Assembly (NCBI GenBank): GCA_025738555.1
Contig: JAOVFP010000018.1
Span: 992,001 to 1,056,000 of the forward strand
Length of the DNA stretch: 64,000 nt
Direction: 5' to 3'
Source of the DNA: Cyathus striatus
Lineage: Eukaryota > Basidiomycota > Agaricomycetes > Agaricales > Nidulariaceae
Below the pieces are notes generated by a model. That model made no database searches, was not told the DNA's origin, and worked only from the letters and a program-made list of their open reading frames with translations. Position numbers and translations under genes: made by a program. This document shows, piece by piece, positions 5,935 through 17,040 of this stretch; positions within the stretch are counted from its first letter, which is position 1; the number at the start of each line of letters is the position of its first letter.

Positions 5935-6542
5935 ACTATATGCCTATTACAATTATAAATGGTGATCATATGCAATCATTGGTTAGTTTGAAGTGTATAT
6001 TACTATTGTAGACCTATTATAAATGGTGATCATATGCAATCATTGGTTAATTTGTAGTGTATATTACTATTGTAGGCCTATTATAAATGGTGATCATATG
6101 CAATTATTGGTTAATTTGAAGTGTATATTACTATTGTAGGCTATTATAAATGGTGATCATATACAATCATTGGTTAATTTGAAGTGTATATTGCTATTGT
6201 AAGCTATTATATATGGTGATCATATGCAATCATTGGTTAACTTGAAGTGTATATTACTACTATAGACCTATTATAAATGGTGATCATATGCAATCATTGG
6301 TTAACTTGAAGTGTATATTACTACTACAGACCTATTATAAATGGTGATCATATGCAATCATTGGTTAATTTGAAGTATATATTACTATTGTAGGCCTATT
6401 ATAAATGGTGATCATATGCAATCATTGGTTAATATGAAGTGTATATTACTATTGTAGGCCTAGTATAAATGGTGATCATATGCAATCATTGGTTAGTTTG
6501 AAGTGTATATTACTACTGTAGGCCTATTATAAATGGTGATTT
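5935..6542. repeat. 64-bp minisatellite, about 9.5 copies
   Basis: The core GGTGATCATATGCAATCATT recurs starting at 5961, 6025, 6089, 6152, 6215, 6279, 6343, 6407 and 6471, with a truncated copy at 6535. The period is 64 bp (63 twice). Copies differ by only a few bases, so the array was amplified or homogenised fairly recently. Each unit contains TGATCA and CATATG palindromes. Confidence 0.95.
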
Positions 6543-6776
6543 GTCACATCATTCCTGCTCTCCACATACTTCCCGCACACTACATTTGTCACACATCCAC
6601 ATGTGTCACATTTGTCACATCATTCCCGCGCTTCACATATTTCCCGCGCATCACACTCGTCACATATGTCACGCTTTAACGCGTTTGTCACGCTTTAATG
6701 CGTTTGTCACGCTTTAGTGCGTTTGTCATGCTTTGGAAGGGCATCACATATGTCACATGTGTCACATTTATAAGGA
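6540..6776. repeat. Short CACAT/CGCTTTAACG repeat tract
   Basis: This directly abuts the minisatellite. It consists of repeated TTGTCACAT and TTCCCGCGC motifs, then about three copies of a 19-bp unit GTCACGCTTTAACGCGTTT (near 6668-6730). It is GC-richer than its surroundings. No gene is supported. Confidence 0.7.
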
Positions 6777-7871
6777 GTGTCATACATTTCAAGCACATCA
6801 TGCTTGCATGTGTGTCATGATTGTAACATGTTGATGGGATTCCAGCAAGTCTATAATGAAAATGTTTGTATACTTTTCACAGATCCTGTCAATAACAATA
6901 CTGCACATGACTATGGAGAAGTAACAGTAAGTTGTTTTAGGCAAGAGATACAAGTAAAAAGATGTGACATTGCCCGTCAATAAGCACGGAAAGATCGAAT
7001 TACATAGTTACAAACCATATACCCCAAATTATGTATACTGCAGTAGACACTTAAGAGCCGGGCTGAGTGCGTGTGGTGCAAGATCCAGTATTGGGATCAA
7101 GACTAAAAGTAAACCTGTAACTGTCTGCTACCTTCCCTTCACCACCTTGACTGCATACATTTGCAATATTGTTTAAGACTAGTTCACAGCTATTTGGATC
7201 TGGGGGTCCAGCGGAGTCGATGGAATTATAGGCAGTGAAATCACCTATTAGGTCAAGGAGTCAGAATCACATCATGTACTTAAGAGATTTAGAGTGAGTA
7301 AATGAACAGCGATATCCGTTGGTGTTGAAGCATCTAGCTCCATTGTCACCCGGGTTGAACTTATGCGAACTTGCATTAGCGAGGGTTATATGGGTATTTC
7401 AGAGGGCATTACCTGAGATAAAGATACATTGGCACAAAAGATGCTAATGAAGTCTGAGCAACTACTTGCTCCAGTTATTCCAGCATTATAACACGTAGGT
7501 AATTGTTGAGCGAATGCAGATGGGGCTACAGTCAGTCCAAGCAGAACAACAACATACTATGATAGCTATCAGATATGAAAAAATAGCTATGACCAATGTC
7601 ACATACTGTGAGTTTCATTGCTGTTAGATAAAGGATGTGTATGGGTGGGATCCTGTTTTCCCTACTCATGAAGGTGGCCTATTAAATAGCTTTGAATCGA
7701 CTGATAAAGTCTCCGTTGACCATCTGGTGAAATGGCACATGTCATGAAAACCAAAATTGTCTTGCAAGATCTTAAGCCTTAATTCTCCTGGTAATATATT
7801 GTAAGGTAATTGCAAGGCACAGGTAATGACTTCTCAATACATGTACAAGGCATTATAAGATCCAAATAGCG
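6777..7871. other. No supported gene
   Basis: Several frames of 60-70 codons occur on both strands but overlap each other, lack recognisable motifs and lack convincing splice partners. The segment is simply the left flank of the large transposon that starts at 7878. Confidence 0.35.
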
Positions 7872-7877
7872 CACAAG

Positions 7878-8414
7878 TATGGAAAGCCGGACAACCACGC
7901 TCAACTAGATCAAAGCAGTTGAACTCCGACATTCGGCAAAACGGCAGTCGCTTAGATATGTTCTTAGGCGCATCTTGTTCAGCCAAAATTTCGGTTAACC
8001 GCTTAGTCCAAGCTTCAAGTCCTACTGTATTCGGATGCAAATGTAAGACTTGGTATTACAATAGAGTACTATAGCATGTGTCGTTACTAATTATTTTGTA
8101 CATTCACTTAAGTTCAATAGATACAATTGAGAAATAAGATGTTAAAAAAGTGTCTATGTTGTATAAATCTAGCTTTGAGATGAGACTCGTAACCTGAAAA
8201 AGCATACAGAGTGCAGTAGCATATATCTACTGCTATTTTTCTAATGAGTTGTTGGAATAGGGTTGATCATGTCTGCAAGAATAGTCCACTGAATTTGTGT
8301 GTAATAGCTTGATGCACACAGCAGGAGTTGAACTCAAGATCGAATGCGTGGGAATTTATCACGTGACATAAAAGTCACGAGCGTCGTTTCCTCCATGGAA
8401 ACGACGCTCGTGAC
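7878..8414 (+). repeat. Left terminal inverted repeat, ends in a perfect hairpin
   Basis: This is the reverse complement of 14669-15205. Its inner end is a palindrome at 8374-8414 with 18-bp arms starting GTCACGAGCGTCG and a 5-base loop. The loop reads in opposite sense in the two repeats, as expected for true inverted copies. Indistinguishable repeats imply recent insertion or recent gene conversion. Confidence 0.93.
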
Positions 8415-8653
8415 CTTTATAACAATTAATTTTTCACCAAGTACCATCTCCATTAATATTATCATTCAGTAATGCATTGTTTAGAAATTGCACAATTCAC
8501 TGAAGGTACTATAGATTGTTTCAAACATAGTAGTAGATAATTGACCTATTTATGGAGTGATTCTAATCAAAGTACCTACAAGCTCATATAAAAAGGTCAT
8601 ACAGATCCTTAACACGACTCCAAATTTGTAACAGCATGCAAGACACTAGATTT

Positions 8654-11472
8654 TTATGCTGTATTGAGAGTTGTTAAGTTAAACCATTCACAGTAATTGT
8701 TGCAAATATGCTCAGATGCAAAATTATTGAATGCAGAACCCACATTCCCCTGGCCAAACAGGGCGGCATCATCTTCAAGTGATCTTAATTGAAATGTTAC
8801 TCTATCTCTTTGAGTAGCTGAAAAATAAACTCACGGTGCGGTCATTATTTGTGGGTCAGATAAAAGTGTGGCACTCCCTGTATTATAAAAAATTATATAA
8901 GAACACTCAAAATAAAATGGTAAAACTGCACACCTTGTAGATCTGATACATATACCAAGGAATCTGTTTTTTCATACTGAATATGCTGCATGAAACAGAG
9001 AAATTCTGCGATGGCATAAAGTGGATCACTTCCATCTAGAAGAGGACGAGCAGAACCATTGTGAATGAATTTTATGAAGTCATTTCCTTCATTCTCAATG
9101 AACTCTTCTAGCAAGTAGACATTGCGCATCGTTGCTGACTTTCCACCAGGCTTACTACCAGCAGTGTCATGAACAATGCCAACACCAGCCTTCACAAAGC
9201 GTATCTCAGGGATTTTGAAAGGAGGCTCTCCTTTGGTTGATATCACCTGTGAGATGTATGAATATGAATAAGACAGTAGAGATGCTGCCCAGTAGGTAAC
9301 ATTGGCCTCGACTAGTGTCTTTGTCAGCTCTGAATCAATTGCAAACCGTCCAATTGATAGTCCTGTCTGAGAAGAGCTATTTCTTGTACTTTTTCTATCA
9401 TCCCGAAAGTAAACTCGCTTTACAGCAACAGGCTGGTTTAATGTATCTCCAAGGCCAGATTCCGCTATTGGAGTGAGTGTAAGGAGCCCTTTATGTGCAG
9501 TTTTACAAGCTCCAATACCAATAGACTCAAGATGATTGATGGTTAGTGTACCAGGACATGGGTCCATTAAAGAGAAAGACTTTTTGGTATTTTCAGCAAG
9601 AAGCTCTGCCAGACCGATCTCAGGAATTGTATAAAACTGGATTTGCTCCACTCTGTATTTTGCTTATATGAGTGTTAGTGATTTTGTATGCATAGTTATT
9701 ATGTGAATAAACTGCTTACCAGAATTAGCTTGTATATTAGCTGATAGTCCACCAACTTTTAATGCTTCACGGATCTTAAGTCTATCTGGAGATTTATATG
9801 GAATTGAAGTGTGTATACGCTTCTTTAATGGAGCAGATGTTGGTGATAACTCCAAGGAGCTTAGTGGATTCTAGGAATAAGTTTAGATGTGCTGCTGCAT
9901 ACATAATTAATGAGTATACATACTGTACGAGTTCGTTTCTTTGAATCAAATGACTTCTTTGGTGTCGTAATAGCTGCAGTGCTGCCATTCAAGCTAGTTG
10001 AATGACTGGTTTTTGCATTGTTCAGAGTACTACCAGAGTCTACATTGACCATGGAATCAAATTGGTCAGATATACCAAAATCATTGGACTCATTTTGCAA
10101 CTAGGAAATGCATGTCAGCATCAATAGAACTTGTCTATACAAATAGACATACTTTAACATCCTAAATAAAAGCAATATAAGATTAGCTTGAATATAAACA
10201 AACTAGTAGTGCTTCCTACCTCCTGAGCAGCGACATAGTCCAAGCTTTCTTCCCACAAATATGCTGGAACAACAAGCCCTAATATAAATGGCTTTGAAGG
10301 TATCTTGAATACATTCTTCTTGTCTTTGCCTCGTCCTTGTCCAAGACAGCGATTATAGAAATATGGCTGGTCTTGTTGCATGCGTGCAAGATCTGTCCAA
10401 TTACAAAGCTCACGAATGGTAAGTGACTTGGTTTGAAATGGAAACCAATGCATCGCCTTCCGAAGTTGAGGTAGCATTGTATCCTCTACCAATTTGATTA
10501 AGTCCCGAGGTGTAATCATGGCTGGGATATTCTGGTGGCCTTCTTGTAGATTCTACTCAAAGTATATTAGCAATAGTGTTCACAGTAAAATATAATTTAG
10601 TTACAAACCGAAATCAACTCAGGCCTAGTTTTACCAGAAATCTCACGGACTGCCTGAACTATAATACTAATTGTTTCAAATTGGCGTCCCTGGTAACTAA
10701 ATCGCTGGTACTTGTCCCGCTCTGTCTTATAGAGTGAATGTGAACCAGAGTACCCTGAGGAAGTAATTTGTTGAGACACTGCATAGCTTCCACCATTTGC
10801 TGACCATGAACTTGGTATTCCCACAGCTGGCAGTTGACGAGTAGAATCAGGTGTATGTGACCATCGCTGCAGTACTGCTGAGGGAAGGCTATTTGGAAGA
10901 TGTGTAACCTTTCGTGCAATGAAACTGGAATCTAAACAAAATATCAAAAAACATCACAGTTAAAATATTTAATTACATACCTTTTCTTTGAGCCTGGTTT
11001 ACAGAAGCTCTGATAGACTGTACATCAACAGTACTGGATCGTGAAGCCACTGAATTCTGTTCAGAAATTTCAGAACTGAGCTGATCTGCAATTGCAGGGC
11101 CTAAACATCAAGTATATTAGTATATTATTGTTAAATTAAAATATAAAAGACATACTTATGATAGAGTCCGTGGGTAGTTGTCGATTTGTACTGGATAAGC
11201 GACTTGCAACATCAGGCCCTATCTGGTGTGAGAAAATTTTCATCATATACTAATAATAATTCAGACTTACTCAGAAGTGTATCTGGTTTCTTTGCATAAT
11301 ATTCAAAGCACCCATCACAAACAAATTTACCGCGAGTACCACCTGCAATATAGTGCTTGCTGTCACCAGGCTGGAGAATGATTGAGCAGCTGCTTCTACC
11401 ACATGGGATGGGTTCACTTGCATGTGTATCTTCAGTGAATTTAGCAATAGCTTCGGCATTACCAAAGTTCAT
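8654..11472 (-). CDS. Alpha-type protein kinase (fungal alpha-kinase), ten exons, transposon passenger
   Basis: The exons on the minus strand are 11472-11271, 11218-11156, 11100-10981, 10931-10609, 10552-10220, 10100-9924, 9870-9720, 9650-8934, 8877-8835 and 8783-8654. Splice phases agree throughout, giving a 752-aa protein with no stop. The N-terminal part has a cysteine motif (IPCGRSSC ... FVCDGC) that may bind zinc. The C-terminal kinase domain shows PVAVKRVYF (candidate ATP-binding lysine), KFIHNGSARPL, VSDLQG, LSDPQIM and the zinc-binding end EHICNNYCEWF. That order is the alpha-kinase (eEF2-kinase/TRPM7 class) signature: Ser/Thr phosphorylation with a Zn-stabilised fold. An upstream in-frame ATG at 11541 would add 23 residues. 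It lies wholly inside the transposon, divergent from the transposase, sharing an intergenic region. The substrate is unknown. Confidence 0.9.
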
Positions 11473-11638
11473 GTTGATAGCAATGAAAGAGTGAAAGTGG
11501 TGGGATAAAAGGTGCTGCTGAGAAGATACGATGAATTTCACAAGGTATTTATATTTTTAGTGAGATCATGTCTTGTATCATAAGTCAGATATTCTGAAAT
11601 CATGACAATTCACAAATACCTCATGTGTGATGTCGCAT

Positions 11639-12136
11639 GGTAAGATATTAAATAAACAAACGTAAATTTTACCCAGTGCATATGTTTTGGATGATCATGA
11701 AGTGGAATATAGATAGTATAGTGGAAGGCAATGCAACAAATATTAAAAGGATTTGACCGATTTTTATGTCATTTGCCATACTAAGACTCTCAAGAGCCAA
11801 GAATGATCAACTCTGATTACTCTTATTCAATATAATTACAAGCAAGCAGTTACTTGACCATAATATAATGTGCTTGATGTTGAGCACGGTAAGATGTTAA
11901 ATAACCCAAATGTAAATTTTGCTCATTGTGTATATTTTGAATGAGTGTGAAGCGAAATAAAAATAGTATAGTCGAAGGCAATGCAGCAAATATTAAGAGA
12001 TTTTGACTGATTGTGATGTCATTTGTGATACTAAGACTCTCAAGAGCCGAGAATGATCAACTCCAATTACTTTGATTTAGTATAATTACCAGCTAGTGGT
12101 TACCTGAATGTAATACAATGTGCTTGATACTGACAG
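11639..12136. repeat. 249-bp tandem duplication in the shared promoter region of the transposon
   Basis: The block starting GGTAAGAT at 11639 recurs at 11888. Each copy contains TAGTATAGT-GAAGGCAATGCA, ACTAAGACTCTCAAGAGCC and AATGTGCTTGAT near its end. The copies differ at many bases, so the duplication is older than the last terminal-repeat homogenisation. It lies between the divergent starts of the alpha-kinase (11472) and the transposase (12515) and probably carries their regulatory sequences. Confidence 0.85.
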
Positions 12137-12514
12137 GTTGGCCAGAGTAATTATCATGAAGTGCGATAAAAGACTCCTGGTAAGGCATGAGGAAACTAAA
12201 ACAATGGCTAATATTAAATATTAATTACTTCCCATTGTGTGAGTATGAAATTGGAACTTGGTAGTAGGATCTTCACTTATTAGACTGAGTAATCATTAAA
12301 TTTGTAAAGATACAGACTGGTAAAGTGCTTATGTTTTATGTAATGTGTAGCACATTTATTTTACGTAGATTTGCTATGCACAGCTGCCTTGCAAAGTATT
12401 TTTAGAGAAGATTGACAATATAAATACTTTGGGGTACAGTAAAAAATCGAATCAACTGTTTCTTCATTCACTCACGTGTATACACTACTTGCTGTCATTA
12501 CCAACATCGAAATT

Positions 12515-14456
12515 ATGGCTAGAACAGAACGCAAAAATCAATATAATCCTAACCGTAAGTTTGGATTCATGTGTACTTATTGTTTTACCATTGTTAATTT
12601 CTCTATGCCATAGCTCCTATTGATGACATCGCCCCACACATACTTAGGTACTGGAAAATGCGTCTCACTGATAAGAACATACTTCATTACTTGAGGACAA
12701 AGCACATGGATAATACTCATTATGGATTAGGGTAAGTTGTGTAACTTTGTGTTCACTATTATTCACATTAGATATCAAGCTTACACTTATTAAATGAATA
12801 GTTTGACCAGGCTTATTGAAATGCGTGAGAAAATGGGGCTTTTTCGAACTCGGAAGCAAAATCATGATGTCGAGAGCATCCGGCCAGCAATGATTTGCTT
12901 ACGAACTCAGTATCCAAAAGCTGGTGCTCATGAGATGGTGAGTTTGCTATTTCATGAGGAGAACATGGCAGTCTCTAGGTCTGTTTATGTTATTGATGTC
13001 AAATTTTTCATTCACTTACTATTATGAATTTCAGGCGAATTGTTACATCATACTTTGCTCTCTATGAGCCTGAGCTTGTTCAGCAGCGGCGTGCACAAAG
13101 GCTGCGTCGAAAGAGGTGGTGGGCTGCTGGTGTGAATGATATAATTGCAGTGGATCAGCATGACAAGTGGAAATACAAATTTAGTCTGGGTTTACATACT
13201 GGCATCGACCCATTTGCTGGAAAGATTCATTGGTTGAAGGTTTGGCATACTAATAGTAACCCTAAACTTATTCTTGCATATTATCTTGAAACTATTGAGA
13301 ATCTTGGTGGTAAGCCTTTTAAAATTTTGTTCAGATTGGCCATTATTAATAAATATATGTAGCAATGCCTCTGGTTACTCAGAGTGACCCTGGCTCCGAA
13401 AATTTTGGACTTGCCAATGGACATACATTTCTTCGTCACCTTCATGATCCTGCACTTCAGGGAACACTTCAACACCGCTGGATGCGATCAAAGAAGAATG
13501 TTAAACCTGAGATAACATGGTCACAGCTTCGTCGAAGGTTCACTCCTGGATTTGAAGATATCCTTGACAGGGGCATTAATGAAGACTTGTATCACCCAGA
13601 CCATACTATTGAAGTGTTCGTAATTTTCTATAATATAAAATATATTTATTCTTACAAGTTATCACAATAGCATGGTATTCCGATGGGTATTTATTCCTTG
13701 GCTACAGGGCGAGCTTGATGGCTACAAAGACCGGGTTAACAATACAGCAAAGCGTGCTGATCGTAACAAAGTGCTTCCTCATGGTATACCTAATGACATT
13801 TTTGAAAATCCAAATGAATATGGTGTCTTAGATTTCAAGGTGAGTTATCATTTTTATAAATGATTTCTTATGCTAACAGTATGCAAGATACCAGTCAATA
13901 TGGAGGCTATTCAGGAAGCACGTGCATTGTTTTCACCACCTAATGATCCTGTATTCCAGCTAGTACCAGAAACATTTTCTAATCTGGCTCAGGACATATA
14001 TTCACGGCATGGTTCACCAGTTATTACTAGGAACAATGTCTGGGATATCTACTTGTTAATCCTTAATGATATTCAGTCAGGAATTGACATTCCACCTGGC
14101 ATTCAGGATATCTGGACTGAAATTATTAGGACTTCACTATGTGATCATCATGATACCATGGATTTATTACCTGGCCTTTCAGAGTTAGAAGGAGGGATTG
14201 AAAATGCTACAGCAGAGGGATTGTATTACATGGGTGGTGTGAACAATGGGAGGGGAATAGGTAAATGAAAGTATTCAATATATATACTTCACTTTCTGAC
14301 AAATTGCTGTGTCCAGATGAATCTCATTCAGCACAGCTTGATGCTATGATGAATGCAGACCATCCAGTTATTTATGAGGAGCATGAATTTCCAGAAATTG
14401 AAGTTAATTTCACTTCAGATGAGGATGACTCAATCAACGGAGATGGTACTTGGTGA
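12515..14456 (+). CDS. Integrase-core (rve-fold) DDE transposase, eight exons
   Basis: The exons are 12515-12554, 12614-12731, 12802-12978, 13035-13309, 13363-13615, 13671-13839, 13888-14260 and 14317-14456. Phases fit exactly, giving 514 aa. Residues of about 1-110 form a likely helical DNA-binding region. The catalytic core shows AVDQHDKWK (first Asp), GIDPFAGKIHWLKVW, VTQSDPGSEN (second Asp) and KPEITWSQLRRRF (probable Glu), followed by MVFRWVFIPWLQ and RVNNTAKR. It belongs to a widespread basidiomycete family annotated as 'integrase core domain' and should cut and join the element ends at 7878 and 15205. It is intact, so the element may be autonomous. The acidic tail ends NGDGTW. A piece of the region around this stop is repeated in inverted orientation near the left terminal repeat. 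Confidence 0.9.
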
Positions 14457-14668
14457 AAAATTAATTGATATGCTGGTTATATGTACTTGCAGATACTTCA
14501 ATTAGAATAGCTCTGTAGATAGGTATTATTACCACTTGAAACAATCTACAGTACATCTATTGAAATATGCAATCTCTAAATGAACATAAACAATGATGTA
14601 TTTATAATATGAATGAAAATCAATGTGCCAGTGTTGTAAGAAATGCACCTGGCTCAACACTTGAGTAA

Positions 14669-15205
14669 GTCACGAGCGTCGTTTCCATGGAGGAAACGAC
14701 GCTCGTGACTTTTATGTCACGTGATAAATTCCCACGCATTCGATCTTGAGTTCAACTCCTGCTGTGTGCATCAAGCTATTACACACAAATTCAGTGGACT
14801 ATTCTTGCAGACATGATCAACCCTATTCCAACAACTCATTAGAAAAATAGCAGTAGATATATGCTACTGCACTCTGTATGCTTTTTCAGGTTACGAGTCT
14901 CATCTCAAAGCTAGATTTATACAACATAGACACTTTTTTAACATCTTATTTCTCAATTGTATCTATTGAACTTAAGTGAATGTACAAAATAATTAGTAAC
15001 GACACATGCTATAGTACTCTATTGTAATACCAAGTCTTACATTTGCATCCGAATACAGTAGGACTTGAAGCTTGGACTAAGCGGTTAACCGAAATTTTGG
15101 CTGAACAAGATGCGCCTAAGAACATATCTAAGCGACTGCCGTTTTGCCGAATGTCGGAGTTCAACTGCTTTGATCTAGTTGAGCGTGGTTGTCCGGCTTT
15201 CCATA
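14669..15205 (-). repeat. Right terminal inverted repeat
   Basis: Inverted copy of 7878-8414, with the hairpin at 14669-14709. The outer part holds an open frame of about 54 codons reading outward to the element tip. That frame is of unknown meaning, since the same sequence exists at the left end. Confidence 0.93.
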
Positions 15206-15211
15206 CACAAG

Positions 15212-17040
15212 GCCAGTTATGACAACCAGGGTGTATCACAGTTGATTTTACAACTTTCATAATCTTAAGTCTACCTTTCAACATTAGGATAATATTACTT
15301 ATTCATTGTAAACCCTCGTAGTATTAGCCCTGTAGCTGAGCAACTTATTTACTCTGTTTTTCTTTACCCACCAATATCGCTACCTATCCTTGACCTATCC
15401 ACCGCAATATCGACAATATAACCCACAAAATATGAACTAATATTGTTAATAGTTTTTCTGTATAATTTGCTTGTTTGGAACACTGGCTGGTGCAAGGCTG
15501 GTACGTATTGTTGATCAACAACCAGTGGGGAGAAAGTGTGGATATAGACCAACAAAGACCGAATCTGGATTGACCAGGATAAAGATCTCGTCTAGACCCA
15601 GAACTTGCAGCATGCATGCCTAGACTGTGCAAGATCCAGCTTCAAGCTGACTAAAATGACCACCAGAGATGTATAAAAGAGCGACAAAACCTCTATTTGT
15701 TGTCACCTCAAGATTAGTAGGTTAGAGTTGTACTTGTAAGTAAGAAGCCAAAAAGGTAAGATGGGTAGGTGATTCAATGTAATGTATATACTAACGTAAA
15801 AATAAGTGTAGTATTACTAGTTACTAGTCATAGTCATGTACCACATTATAGCACTGTATCTACATTGAATTCAAATAGAATGTCCTGCAACTGGCCTTTA
15901 TAAATCATTGAGTTCTATGTGTAAAATGAAAGGAATGAAAATTTCATCATTTATTAGGCAATAATATTATACATAATTAAAAGTCATTGTATGGTGTGTA
16001 TTTATTGTAAGACTCTGCAGCAAGCCTTACAGTTCATTTAAGTATATATGACATTTACACGGTATTTTAAGGCTCTCCGCGAAGCTGTAAAACACCATTT
16101 AAGGATCTGTGTTCAACAATATGCCTTGCGAGGCGAGTGATGCCTTAAGGCCTTACAATGCACCTTAATCAATTGTGTGGCAAACTAGGTTTTCATGACA
16201 CAGCAATGTGCAGATCCCTCAGTGCGAGGTAATGAAATTCCATATCAAAGAATTCTGGAGTTCAGCTGGCACTGTGAGTGAGTGCCATGTAATTATGATA
16301 GATGGCTATTTTTATTAAGGACATATCAAAGAACTTCTTTTAAATGGTATCATCTCTCAGTAGCTTAACCATTTAGTTTGATGCTATCTCTCTAAATTTG
16401 AAATTTGAAATTAAATTCAACCTAGATGATGCACTGCAGCTACTCGAGACACATACCTTTTCAGAGAAAATACTGGGTATGTATGTGATCCACCATCAGA
16501 ATATGTTGTCCAATTGCAGTCAAATATTGAGGACCGAACGCAAATTAATGACCAGTGTAGCTCGTGTTTTCCTTTAAAGTTTGGCTCACTTAATCAGACT
16601 TCGATGCTCATAATAATATGTGCCATAATTGGAACAGTATGTGCAAGAGAAGGGAGCAGAACCAGATTTACAGTAGACATTTTGATTTAGAAGCACAAGG
16701 TCGCTTGTTGTACATATGCTCAACAAATCTCTTGTTCCGACCATGCAGGAGAACCTGTTCGGATGTCATACAAAGTAAGGAATATCCGAATGCAGTACAC
16801 ATAAAAAACCCCGACCGTTCGACCACCAGCTGTAAGCAAAAAGTAAAAATAAAACAAGGAGAAGATACCGTAGTTCTTGTATCAGAGTCCCTAAGACTTC
16901 CGCCTTCCTAGATTCTCAATCTGCCGCACCCAATCCACTTTATCACTGCGGTTCGTCATAGAATGCTTTCCACGTTGTAGAGACAGTAATGAGTGTATTC
17001 CAATGATTGTTGATGGTATAGATGCCGTTTGCCATTAACT
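15212..17040. other. No supported gene
   Basis: Short frames on both strands lack motifs. A weak fold-back is visible near 15,990-16,180, with ATTGTAAG at one end and CTTACAAT at the other and TTTAAGG/CCTTAA blocks between. It could be a decayed miniature element, but I saw no target duplication. Confidence 0.3.

Follow-up and report, generated by a model that had tools for sequence, protein, structure and literature searches.

Alpha-kinase genes have been described in a group of DNA transposons, the TET-carrying IS3EU elements of rusts and Tuber indicum, in which they lie divergently to the transposase gene (Kojima 2025, PMC12730594). The rust families of this group create 6-bp duplications, end in TAYGG..CCRTA and possess inverted repeats of more than 30 bp (PMC12730594). 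The preliminary description of the locus studied here was not aware of any described carrier of this kind, a view that the report by Kojima makes obsolete. The text of that report on these families contains no test of selection on the kinase or of its co-descent (PMC12730594), and the word alpha-kinase does not occur in the main text of the paper on the IS3EU/GingerRoot superfamily (PMC10045372). Alpha-kinases have been reported as highly expanded in rusts (PMC4469406, citing Duplessis 2011), and PF02816 figures among the families tabulated as enriched in wheat rusts (PMC5295586).

The window, the whole stretch of 64,000 nucleotides that was analysed, contains at 7878..15205 a 7328-bp DNA transposon of the IS3EU kind with TATGG..CCATA ends, which is structurally complete and appears to be recent. 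As initially described from the letters, it is bounded by long inverted repeats and a 6-bp duplication: the left terminus (7878..8414, plus strand) and the right terminus (14669..15205, minus strand) are identical at 537 of 537 positions, and CACAAG is found on both sides (7872..7877 and 15206..15211). In the inverted-repeat listing of the window, the arms 7877-8414 and 14669-15206 are 100% complementary. Palindromes with 24-nt arms (8368..8420) and 20-nt arms (14667..14711) mark the inner edges of the left and right termini, respectively. An empty target site is present at C12:4070100-4070850 as an uninterrupted copy of the target repeat, 98.6% identical over 438 bp with six mismatches, no gap and a single CACAAG. 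At least 19 two-ended copies were identified in the genome when the 40 best of 240 candidates were scored. The copies and the precise empty site mean that the element is real and not a chance arrangement; it was inserted here in the past. Among 16 elements with both exact ends, 11 have an exact 6-bp duplication, and an interrupted copy on C14 is flanked by an AGTTAT duplication. A search of a plasmid collection with the element gave no match, as expected.

The transposase gene (12515..14456, plus strand) consists of eight exons (12515-12554, 12614-12731, 12802-12978, 13035-13309, 13363-13615, 13671-13839, 13888-14260 and 14317-14456), which are joined across GT-AG introns into a stop-free reading frame of 514 residues, the length first given for it. 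The protein matches the PF24764 integrase core in Pfam (E 4.1e-10) and carries an acidic Ser/Thr tail, VNFTSDEDDS in the window copy. D155, D212 and E253 are invariant in an alignment of 24 transposase sequences and are read by us as the putative DDE catalytic triad. The element is designated IS3EU-like on the basis of its termini, its 6-bp duplication and the PF24764 match rather than a tree against Repbase IS3EU proteins.

The divergent alpha-kinase gene (8654..11472, minus strand) is full-length, as the preliminary description held, although the protein comprises 756 residues and not 752. Its ten exons (11472-11271, 11218-11156, 11100-10981, 10931-10609, 10552-10220, 10100-9924, 9870-9720, 9662-8934, 8877-8835 and 8783-8654) follow our own splicing, as do those of the transposase. 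A spliced aligner reproduced the same exons of both genes, but with their own predicted proteins as queries; much of the kinase splicing is independently backed by P0001, a Cyathus striatus protein 84% identical to it. The kinase has an N-terminal module of four cysteines (C24, C29, C52, C55), a long linker and a C-terminal alpha-kinase domain. Its PF02816 match (E 2.4e-14, 54.3 bits against a curated cut-off of 21.3) spans residues 609-745 and positions 71-185 of the 185 of the profile, with the N-lobe unmatched. VAVKR at 535, SDLQG at 696, LSDPQ at 705 and HICNNYC at 739 contain all the residues originally noted as kept, namely the Lys, which we take to be that of the ATP site, DLQG, DP and the HxCx3C residues, presumably zinc ligands; judged from these motifs, the catalytic domain appears complete. 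A structure model of exon 8, built from the piece and two relatives, had a mean pLDDT of 35.4, too low for a fold to be read. The genes are separated by 11473..12514, presumed to act as a two-way promoter, within which 227 nt are directly duplicated (11657-11883 and 11907-12133, 81%).

Kinase sequence is present in all 19 two-ended copies and the whole 2.8-kb gene in 13 of them, so the possibility raised at the outset, that no other copy contains one, does not hold. The pair also extends beyond the family of the window. Located on DNA, a divergent kinase and transposase occur at nine further loci (L029, L030, L031, L035-L039 and L043), adding about five families. Of these, B and D likewise end in TATGG..CCATA; their termini measure 865 and 312 bp, and their 6-bp duplications, GGGGAG and CGTTGT, are exact. 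In this genome the link was not seen to extend to PF24764 integrases in general: none of the 27 other PF24764 loci listed, taken as a control, had an alpha-kinase match within 12 kb. Among database proteins, the pair is likely carried by Tephrocybe rancida, as suggested by the gene tags DXG01_005694 and DXG01_005695 on contigs of equal size, and by Cyathus striatus, both proteins of which come from contigs of 111,327. The protein search yielded 504 transposase relatives but two kinase relatives and the profile search one kinase relative; these low numbers do not prove absence, because scoring was confined to the candidates with most words in common and a relative found by the first search was missed by the second.

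The comparison of trees proposed at the outset was made with 14 rows for the kinase and 14 for the transposase. The main groups are common to both trees, each of which places the C1_7766 element closest to that of Cyathus striatus and so points to an agaric host near Cyathus; branching inside C11/C12/C1_6687 differs, without strong support. Kinase and transposase distances are correlated in a Mantel test (r 0.65, p 0.0004; nine rows, some of one family). Most of the locus copies compared contain stops or frameshifts, the L042 kinase model having eight stops and six frameshifts, and L041 and P0112 cover the transposase incompletely. Neither tree includes L029, because the start of its transposase failed to align; its transposase was restricted to residues 101-514 in the dN/dS contrast and used whole in the Mantel test and its table. 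The kinase-tree row C10_123 is meaningless, since the L044 model behind it has only 148 residues, placed against a wrong region of the query.

Selection was assessed in three between-family contrasts chosen for usable synonymous divergence (pS 0.44-0.55). The kinase dN/dS values of 0.21, 0.22 and 0.21 (95% bootstrap limits within 0.16-0.28) indicate purifying selection, in agreement with the early suggestion drawn from the kept motifs; the transposase values were 0.10, 0.15 and 0.09, and the kinase evolves about twice as fast. Within-family dN/dS was rejected as the main test since CpG>TpG change in dead copies dominates it: values among decayed members of a single family were 0.65-1.03, and the pooled comparison of the window with 11 copies (kinase 0.55, transposase 0.99) reflects decay and does not test the active lineage. 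On these sequence comparisons, the alpha-kinase is supported as having descended together with the transposase under purifying selection.

The gene was initially called a passenger. The presence of a full-length alpha-kinase in an intact IS3EU-like element stands, whereas the origin of the kinase as a captured host gene does not: the divergent pair in several families, the trees agreeing on the main groups and the purifying selection leave the captured passenger unsupported, and the kinase behaves as the second gene of the element. A host gene caught by chance and carried along neutrally is very improbable. A donor pool for such a capture exists in the 11 of 35 alpha-kinase matches unlinked to elements (for example C12:2361608, C19:2133684, C19:2368027 and C6:4539215; near a further match, C4:1073823 or L055, no window-type transposase was found in the 5 kb of DNA covered). 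Broken kinases are also held by the kinase-only 2.95-kb derivatives L023, L028 and L034, which match the leftmost 1.7 kb of the window element at 93%, 93% and 91% identity and encode a truncated kinase, each with an in-frame stop, a frameshift or a deletion; as internal-deletion derivatives they were rejected as a sign of selection for the kinase. Neutral carriage is nevertheless at odds with the between-family dN/dS, with the same divergent layout and the nine kinase introns of the window copy recurring in L029, L031, L035 and L040, and with the common tree groups, the four-Cys module kept in 12 of 12 kinase models and catalytic motifs mostly kept among them.

The purifying selection, like the seemingly complete catalytic domain, would also fit a cargo that benefits the host and is maintained by selection at the host level. 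We consider this unlikely, as the kinase follows the transposase tree and is damaged in 15 of the 16 family copies examined (L019 was left out of this scoring), both genes being undamaged only in the window copy. The kinase search listed 53 matches, from the best 40 of 72 candidates scored; those fetched lie within element sequence, and among them no intact window-family kinase was seen outside an element, several matches being unfetched (including C2:896387, C7:701229-702230 and C8:975173-976337).

The most likely view is thus that the kinase is an accessory gene, old and under selection, of an IS3EU-like sublineage, probably trans-acting in the spread of the element itself, an overall reading to which we assign a probability of roughly 0.78. 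Acting on the long inverted termini, the DDE transposase would mobilize the 7.3-kb unit and leave 6-bp duplications behind. The trees and dN/dS support the divergent alpha-kinase as an old second gene of the sublineage rather than a recent capture, one that selection preserved in working order during the active life of the elements. Tethered by its four-Cys module and linker, it would phosphorylate either the transposase or a factor of the host, in the step of transposition or of silencing. As the target, the transposase itself or the transposition complex is slightly favoured, with the VNFTSDEDDS tail as a candidate site. Action on host silencing or repair factors instead of the transposase, an anti-silencing role as proposed for transposon TET/JBP genes, is possible but clearly less probable. 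It would accord with the strong decay of the remaining copies, in which 1013 of 3710 CpG positions have undergone CpG>TpG change, consistent with methylation of dead copies, and with the position of TET/JBP genes in TET+ IS3EU families, where they separate the kinase from the transposase (PMC12730594); against it, a TET gene is not visible in the window element. The small remainder falls to other roles.

Across the genome, IS3EU-type elements account for 24 of the 35 alpha-kinase domain matches. The idea of a mobile carrier as a mechanism of expansion is therefore supported here: the copies spread the kinase, transposition is a real source of alpha-kinase "expansion" in this genome, and such expansions may need to be re-read as transposon content. 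Whether the kinase of the fungal IS3EU sublineage is a dedicated transposition or anti-silencing factor, and many expanded alpha-kinase families of mushrooms and rusts are transposon genes and not host signalling genes, we regard as evenly balanced. With an element-encoded kinase selected beside its transposase, the part that phosphorylation plays in eukaryotic transposition becomes open to testing with just two proteins and a mini-element.

Among known alpha-kinases, those of solved structure (1ia9, a TRP-channel kinase; myosin heavy chain kinase A; eEF2 kinase) differ from the window kinase in their N-terminal parts and align with it over about the last 85 domain residues only. The DLQG/DIQG, (L/Y)(S/T)DP, FGxxNxG and HxCNxxC stretches of 1ia9 and myosin heavy chain kinase A align with the window kinase, the 1ia9 and 3lkm alignments reaching the C-terminal motifs alone. 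An accessory role has been proposed for a protein similar in outline, the zinc-finger/kinase protein encoded beside the transposase of the Oxytricha TBE elements (PMC4724952), the genes of which are reported to be under purifying selection with dN/dS 0.1-0.3 (PMC4724952). TBE elements are Tc1/mariner transposons of a ciliate with three genes, and provide a parallel and not a family. Co-expression of the zinc-finger/kinase protein left DNA binding profiles in E. coli unchanged (PMC12242761), an observation that counts against an accessory-kinase reading of the window element.

With the IS3EU/GingerRoot superfamily the element shares TA..TA termini and the usual 6-bp duplication (PMC10045372), and with the TET+ IS3EU elements the divergent transposase and alpha-kinase genes; its duplication and TATGG..CCATA ends fit the TAYGG..CCRTA of the rust families (PMC12730594). 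It differs in residing in an agaric, with 537-bp termini, rather than in rusts or Tuber indicum, and in having a 1.04-kb gap without visible TET where those families carry TET/JBP between both genes (PMC12730594). No TET/JBP gene was found among ORFs of at least 90 aa touching this gap, the only such ORF (11541-11212) being the frame of kinase exon 1, begun at a GTG further upstream; a Pfam search of the genome with PF12851 (TET/JBP) gave no matches and is uninformative, because its controls gave none either. New in comparison with the described systems are a mushroom lineage without a visible TET gene, the co-descent of kinase and transposase, the selection test, and the residence of 24 of 35 kinase matches in elements.

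The window element is an intact, newly found transposon of a kind that is already known. It occupies 7878-15205 (7328 bp) of the window, which corresponds to C18:992001-1056000, and is bounded by 537-bp inverted termini that are identical at 537/537 positions, with CACAAG abutting both ends. A transposase gene (12515-14456, + strand; 514 aa, 8 exons; Pfam PF24764 integrase core, 4.1e-10) and an alpha-kinase gene (11472-8654, - strand; 756 aa, 10 exons; Pfam PF02816, 2.4e-14) diverge from a middle stretch of 1.04 kb. The exon models are our own splicing, and identical exons were returned by a spliced-alignment script queried with our own protein model. Between the divergent genes lies a direct duplication (11657-12133; 227 nt, 81%), and at the inner edge of both termini (8368-8420, 14667-14711) a strong palindrome, GTCACGAGCGTCGTTTCC plus complement, with a short spacer in either orientation that varies with place. 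The flanks of the element are part of a repeat. Joined around a single CACAAG, they align gap-free to 438 bp of contig C12 (4070100-4070850) with 6 mismatches, and this is the empty site of the element; the junction is also spanned by ten more copies, among those listed, at 86-95%, the base-by-base alignment being that of the C12 copy only. The host repeat (7740-16200; about 1.1 kb without the insertion) has the inverted ends TGTCATGAAAACC and GGTTTTCATGACA, a portion of its sequence recurs at many genomic positions, and inspection by eye revealed no duplication of its own. Upstream, at 6539-6734, are short tandem repeats of TGTCACGCTTT-like units.

The preliminary description viewed the kinase as a passenger of the element. 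That it is carried by the element is borne out by a search for further termini in the genome (107.5 Mb, 24 contigs), in which 40 of 240 candidates were scored and yielded 40 long matches, comprising 18 pairs and four single ends. Since the partner of one single end (C14:1615677) is located in locus L028, the family has at least 19 two-ended elements, a count that includes the C2 and C11:302384 elements, which have lost part of their outermost termini; outside the list of terminus matches, L034 also has both ends. Kinase sequence is present in all 19, as the full 2.8-kb gene in 13, as parts in four and in a kinase-only form in two. A search for kinase DNA, with 40 of 72 candidates scored, placed it near the single ends C9:1549292 and C10:257753 and found none at C3:3962712. 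Exact 6-bp duplications flank 11 of the 16 elements with exact ends, and an interrupted 16-kb copy on C14 has the duplication AGTTAT.

Judged against the window gene model, only the window copy among 16 examined has both genes free of stops, frameshifts and lost splice sites. Relative to it, the 15 other copies together show CpG>TpG at 1013 of 3710 CpG positions, compared with 963 other transitions and 239 transversions at 102,932 non-CpG positions; at 191 positions the window copy itself seems to be the CpG loser. The excess is consistent with methylated, decaying copies. Three 2.95-kb non-autonomous derivatives (L023, L028, L034) contain both termini and part of the kinase domain only, the kinase being broken in all three. 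DNA matches at C18:2413925, C7:5029628, C4:6398558 and C8:2991708, with the same kinase start position, are further candidates.

At least 35 PF02816 matches occur in the genome. For 21 of them, a listed window-type transposase or terminus is no more than 12 kb away; zones of this kind make up at most 1.9% of the genome. With C6:2836599 (L034, with element termini), C17:975111 (L033, about 95% identical to window element DNA, with no termini seen) and C23:210859 (L054, next to a transposase), 24 of the 35 belong to IS3EU-type elements. The other 11 have no such link. Short stretches of six of them were read (L001-L004, L006, L055), and four, L001-L004, are alpha-kinases of another kind that are related to one another. 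Two of these unlinked loci, L002 (C19:2368027) and L003 (C19:2133684), are 99.8% identical, in opposite orientation and about 234 kb apart. No alpha-kinase match was found within 12 kb of 27 other PF24764 integrase-core loci among those listed.

With the window proteins as queries, and within the DNA examined, divergent kinase-transposase pairs were found at L029, L030 and L035 (family B), L038 and L039 (another single family), L036 and L043 (close kin), L031 and L037; L040/L041, separated by nearly 7 kb, and L042, which is badly decayed, would fit such a pair. The L031 kinase, 57% identical to that of the window, has no stop and nine introns, and its exons are of similar length to those of the window kinase. 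Nine introns also occur in L029, L035 and L040, and eight over the portion present in L030; in L036, L037, L038, L039, L042 and L043 introns are merged, missing or interrupted in the kinase and/or transposase models. Family B (C18; termini 865 bp, duplication GGGGAG) and family D (C10; 312 bp, CGTTGT) both start with TATGG and end with CCATA. Just one end of the C12 element was found, and the outer ends of the C17 element lie beyond the stretch examined. In a distant IS3EU-like family, L044 (C10:118800-124600) and L054 (C23:205800-211400), identity to the window counterparts is 48% for the transposase and 35% for the divergent alpha-kinase domain. This family is probably very young, because the two copies, on different contigs, share 99.6% identity across 5.6 kb.

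On the evidence, the kinase is better described as a co-inherited, selected, putative accessory gene than as a passenger. Three contrasts that do not overlap on the transposase tree (window/L029, L036/L037, L031/L038) had usable synonymous divergence, and in them dN/dS was 0.21, 0.22 and 0.21 for the kinase and 0.10, 0.15 and 0.09 for the transposase; the alternatives L030, L035 and L039 gave kinase values of 0.19-0.20. Every computable between-family kinase ratio was 0.14-0.22, with dS saturated in many, compared with 0.65-1.03 for both genes between decayed copies of one family. Stop-containing codons were omitted, and because decayed copies make up most of the rows, the ratios are, if anything, raised. 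The kinase and transposase trees, of 14 sequences each, the comparison suggested earlier, agree in their main groups: window, C1_7766 and Cyathus (support 100/99 and 81/89); C14 and C17; these five as one group; C10_1503, C2_1106 and C2_378; and C12, C1_6687 and C11. Conflict arises inside the last, where C1_6687 pairs with C12 in the kinase tree (86/88) but with C11 in the transposase tree (83/83), which alone adds C8_2264 (91/94). Placement of row C10_123 in the kinase tree is not reliable.

The C-terminal motifs of the window kinase align with 1ia9 (3.3e-07) and MHCK A, and eEF2 kinase was also among the structure matches. Motif residues, which we take to have zinc-binding and catalytic roles, are lost in some decayed kinases (e.g. 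L035, L039, L040, L042). Four N-terminal cysteines (C-x4-C and C-x2-C) occur in 12/12 models, and L044/L054 have a similar motif. The transposase ends in an acidic Ser/Thr tail (14400-14456, including VNFTSDEDDS), similar in aligned transposases of other families; it is a possible target of the kinase.

Protein searches returned 504 transposase relatives, the named sources among the 120 listed being agarics and boletes, and two kinase relatives, from Cyathus striatus (P0001, 84% identical) and Tephrocybe rancida (P0002). The low kinase yield speaks against general pairing, though less strongly given how limited the search was. The Tephrocybe transposase (DXG01_005694) and kinase (DXG01_005695) have consecutive tags and a contig size of 56,483 for both, and in Cyathus this size is 111,327 for both the kinase (P0001) and the transposase (P0112); we infer that the genes are neighbours in both species.

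The only paper found that names both alpha-kinase and IS3EU is Kojima 2025 (PMC12730594). Its accessible parts contain no statement that we could find on kinase selection, kinase co-descent or TET-less agaric families. They describe TET+ IS3EU families in seven Pucciniales species and Tuber indicum, all with a TET/JBP gene that separates the transposase gene from an oppositely oriented alpha-kinase gene, those of rusts having 6-bp duplications and TAYGG..CCRTA ends. Oxytricha TBE elements offer a functional parallel to the window element; co-expression of their accessory proteins is reported to have left DNA binding profiles unchanged in E. coli (PMC12242761).
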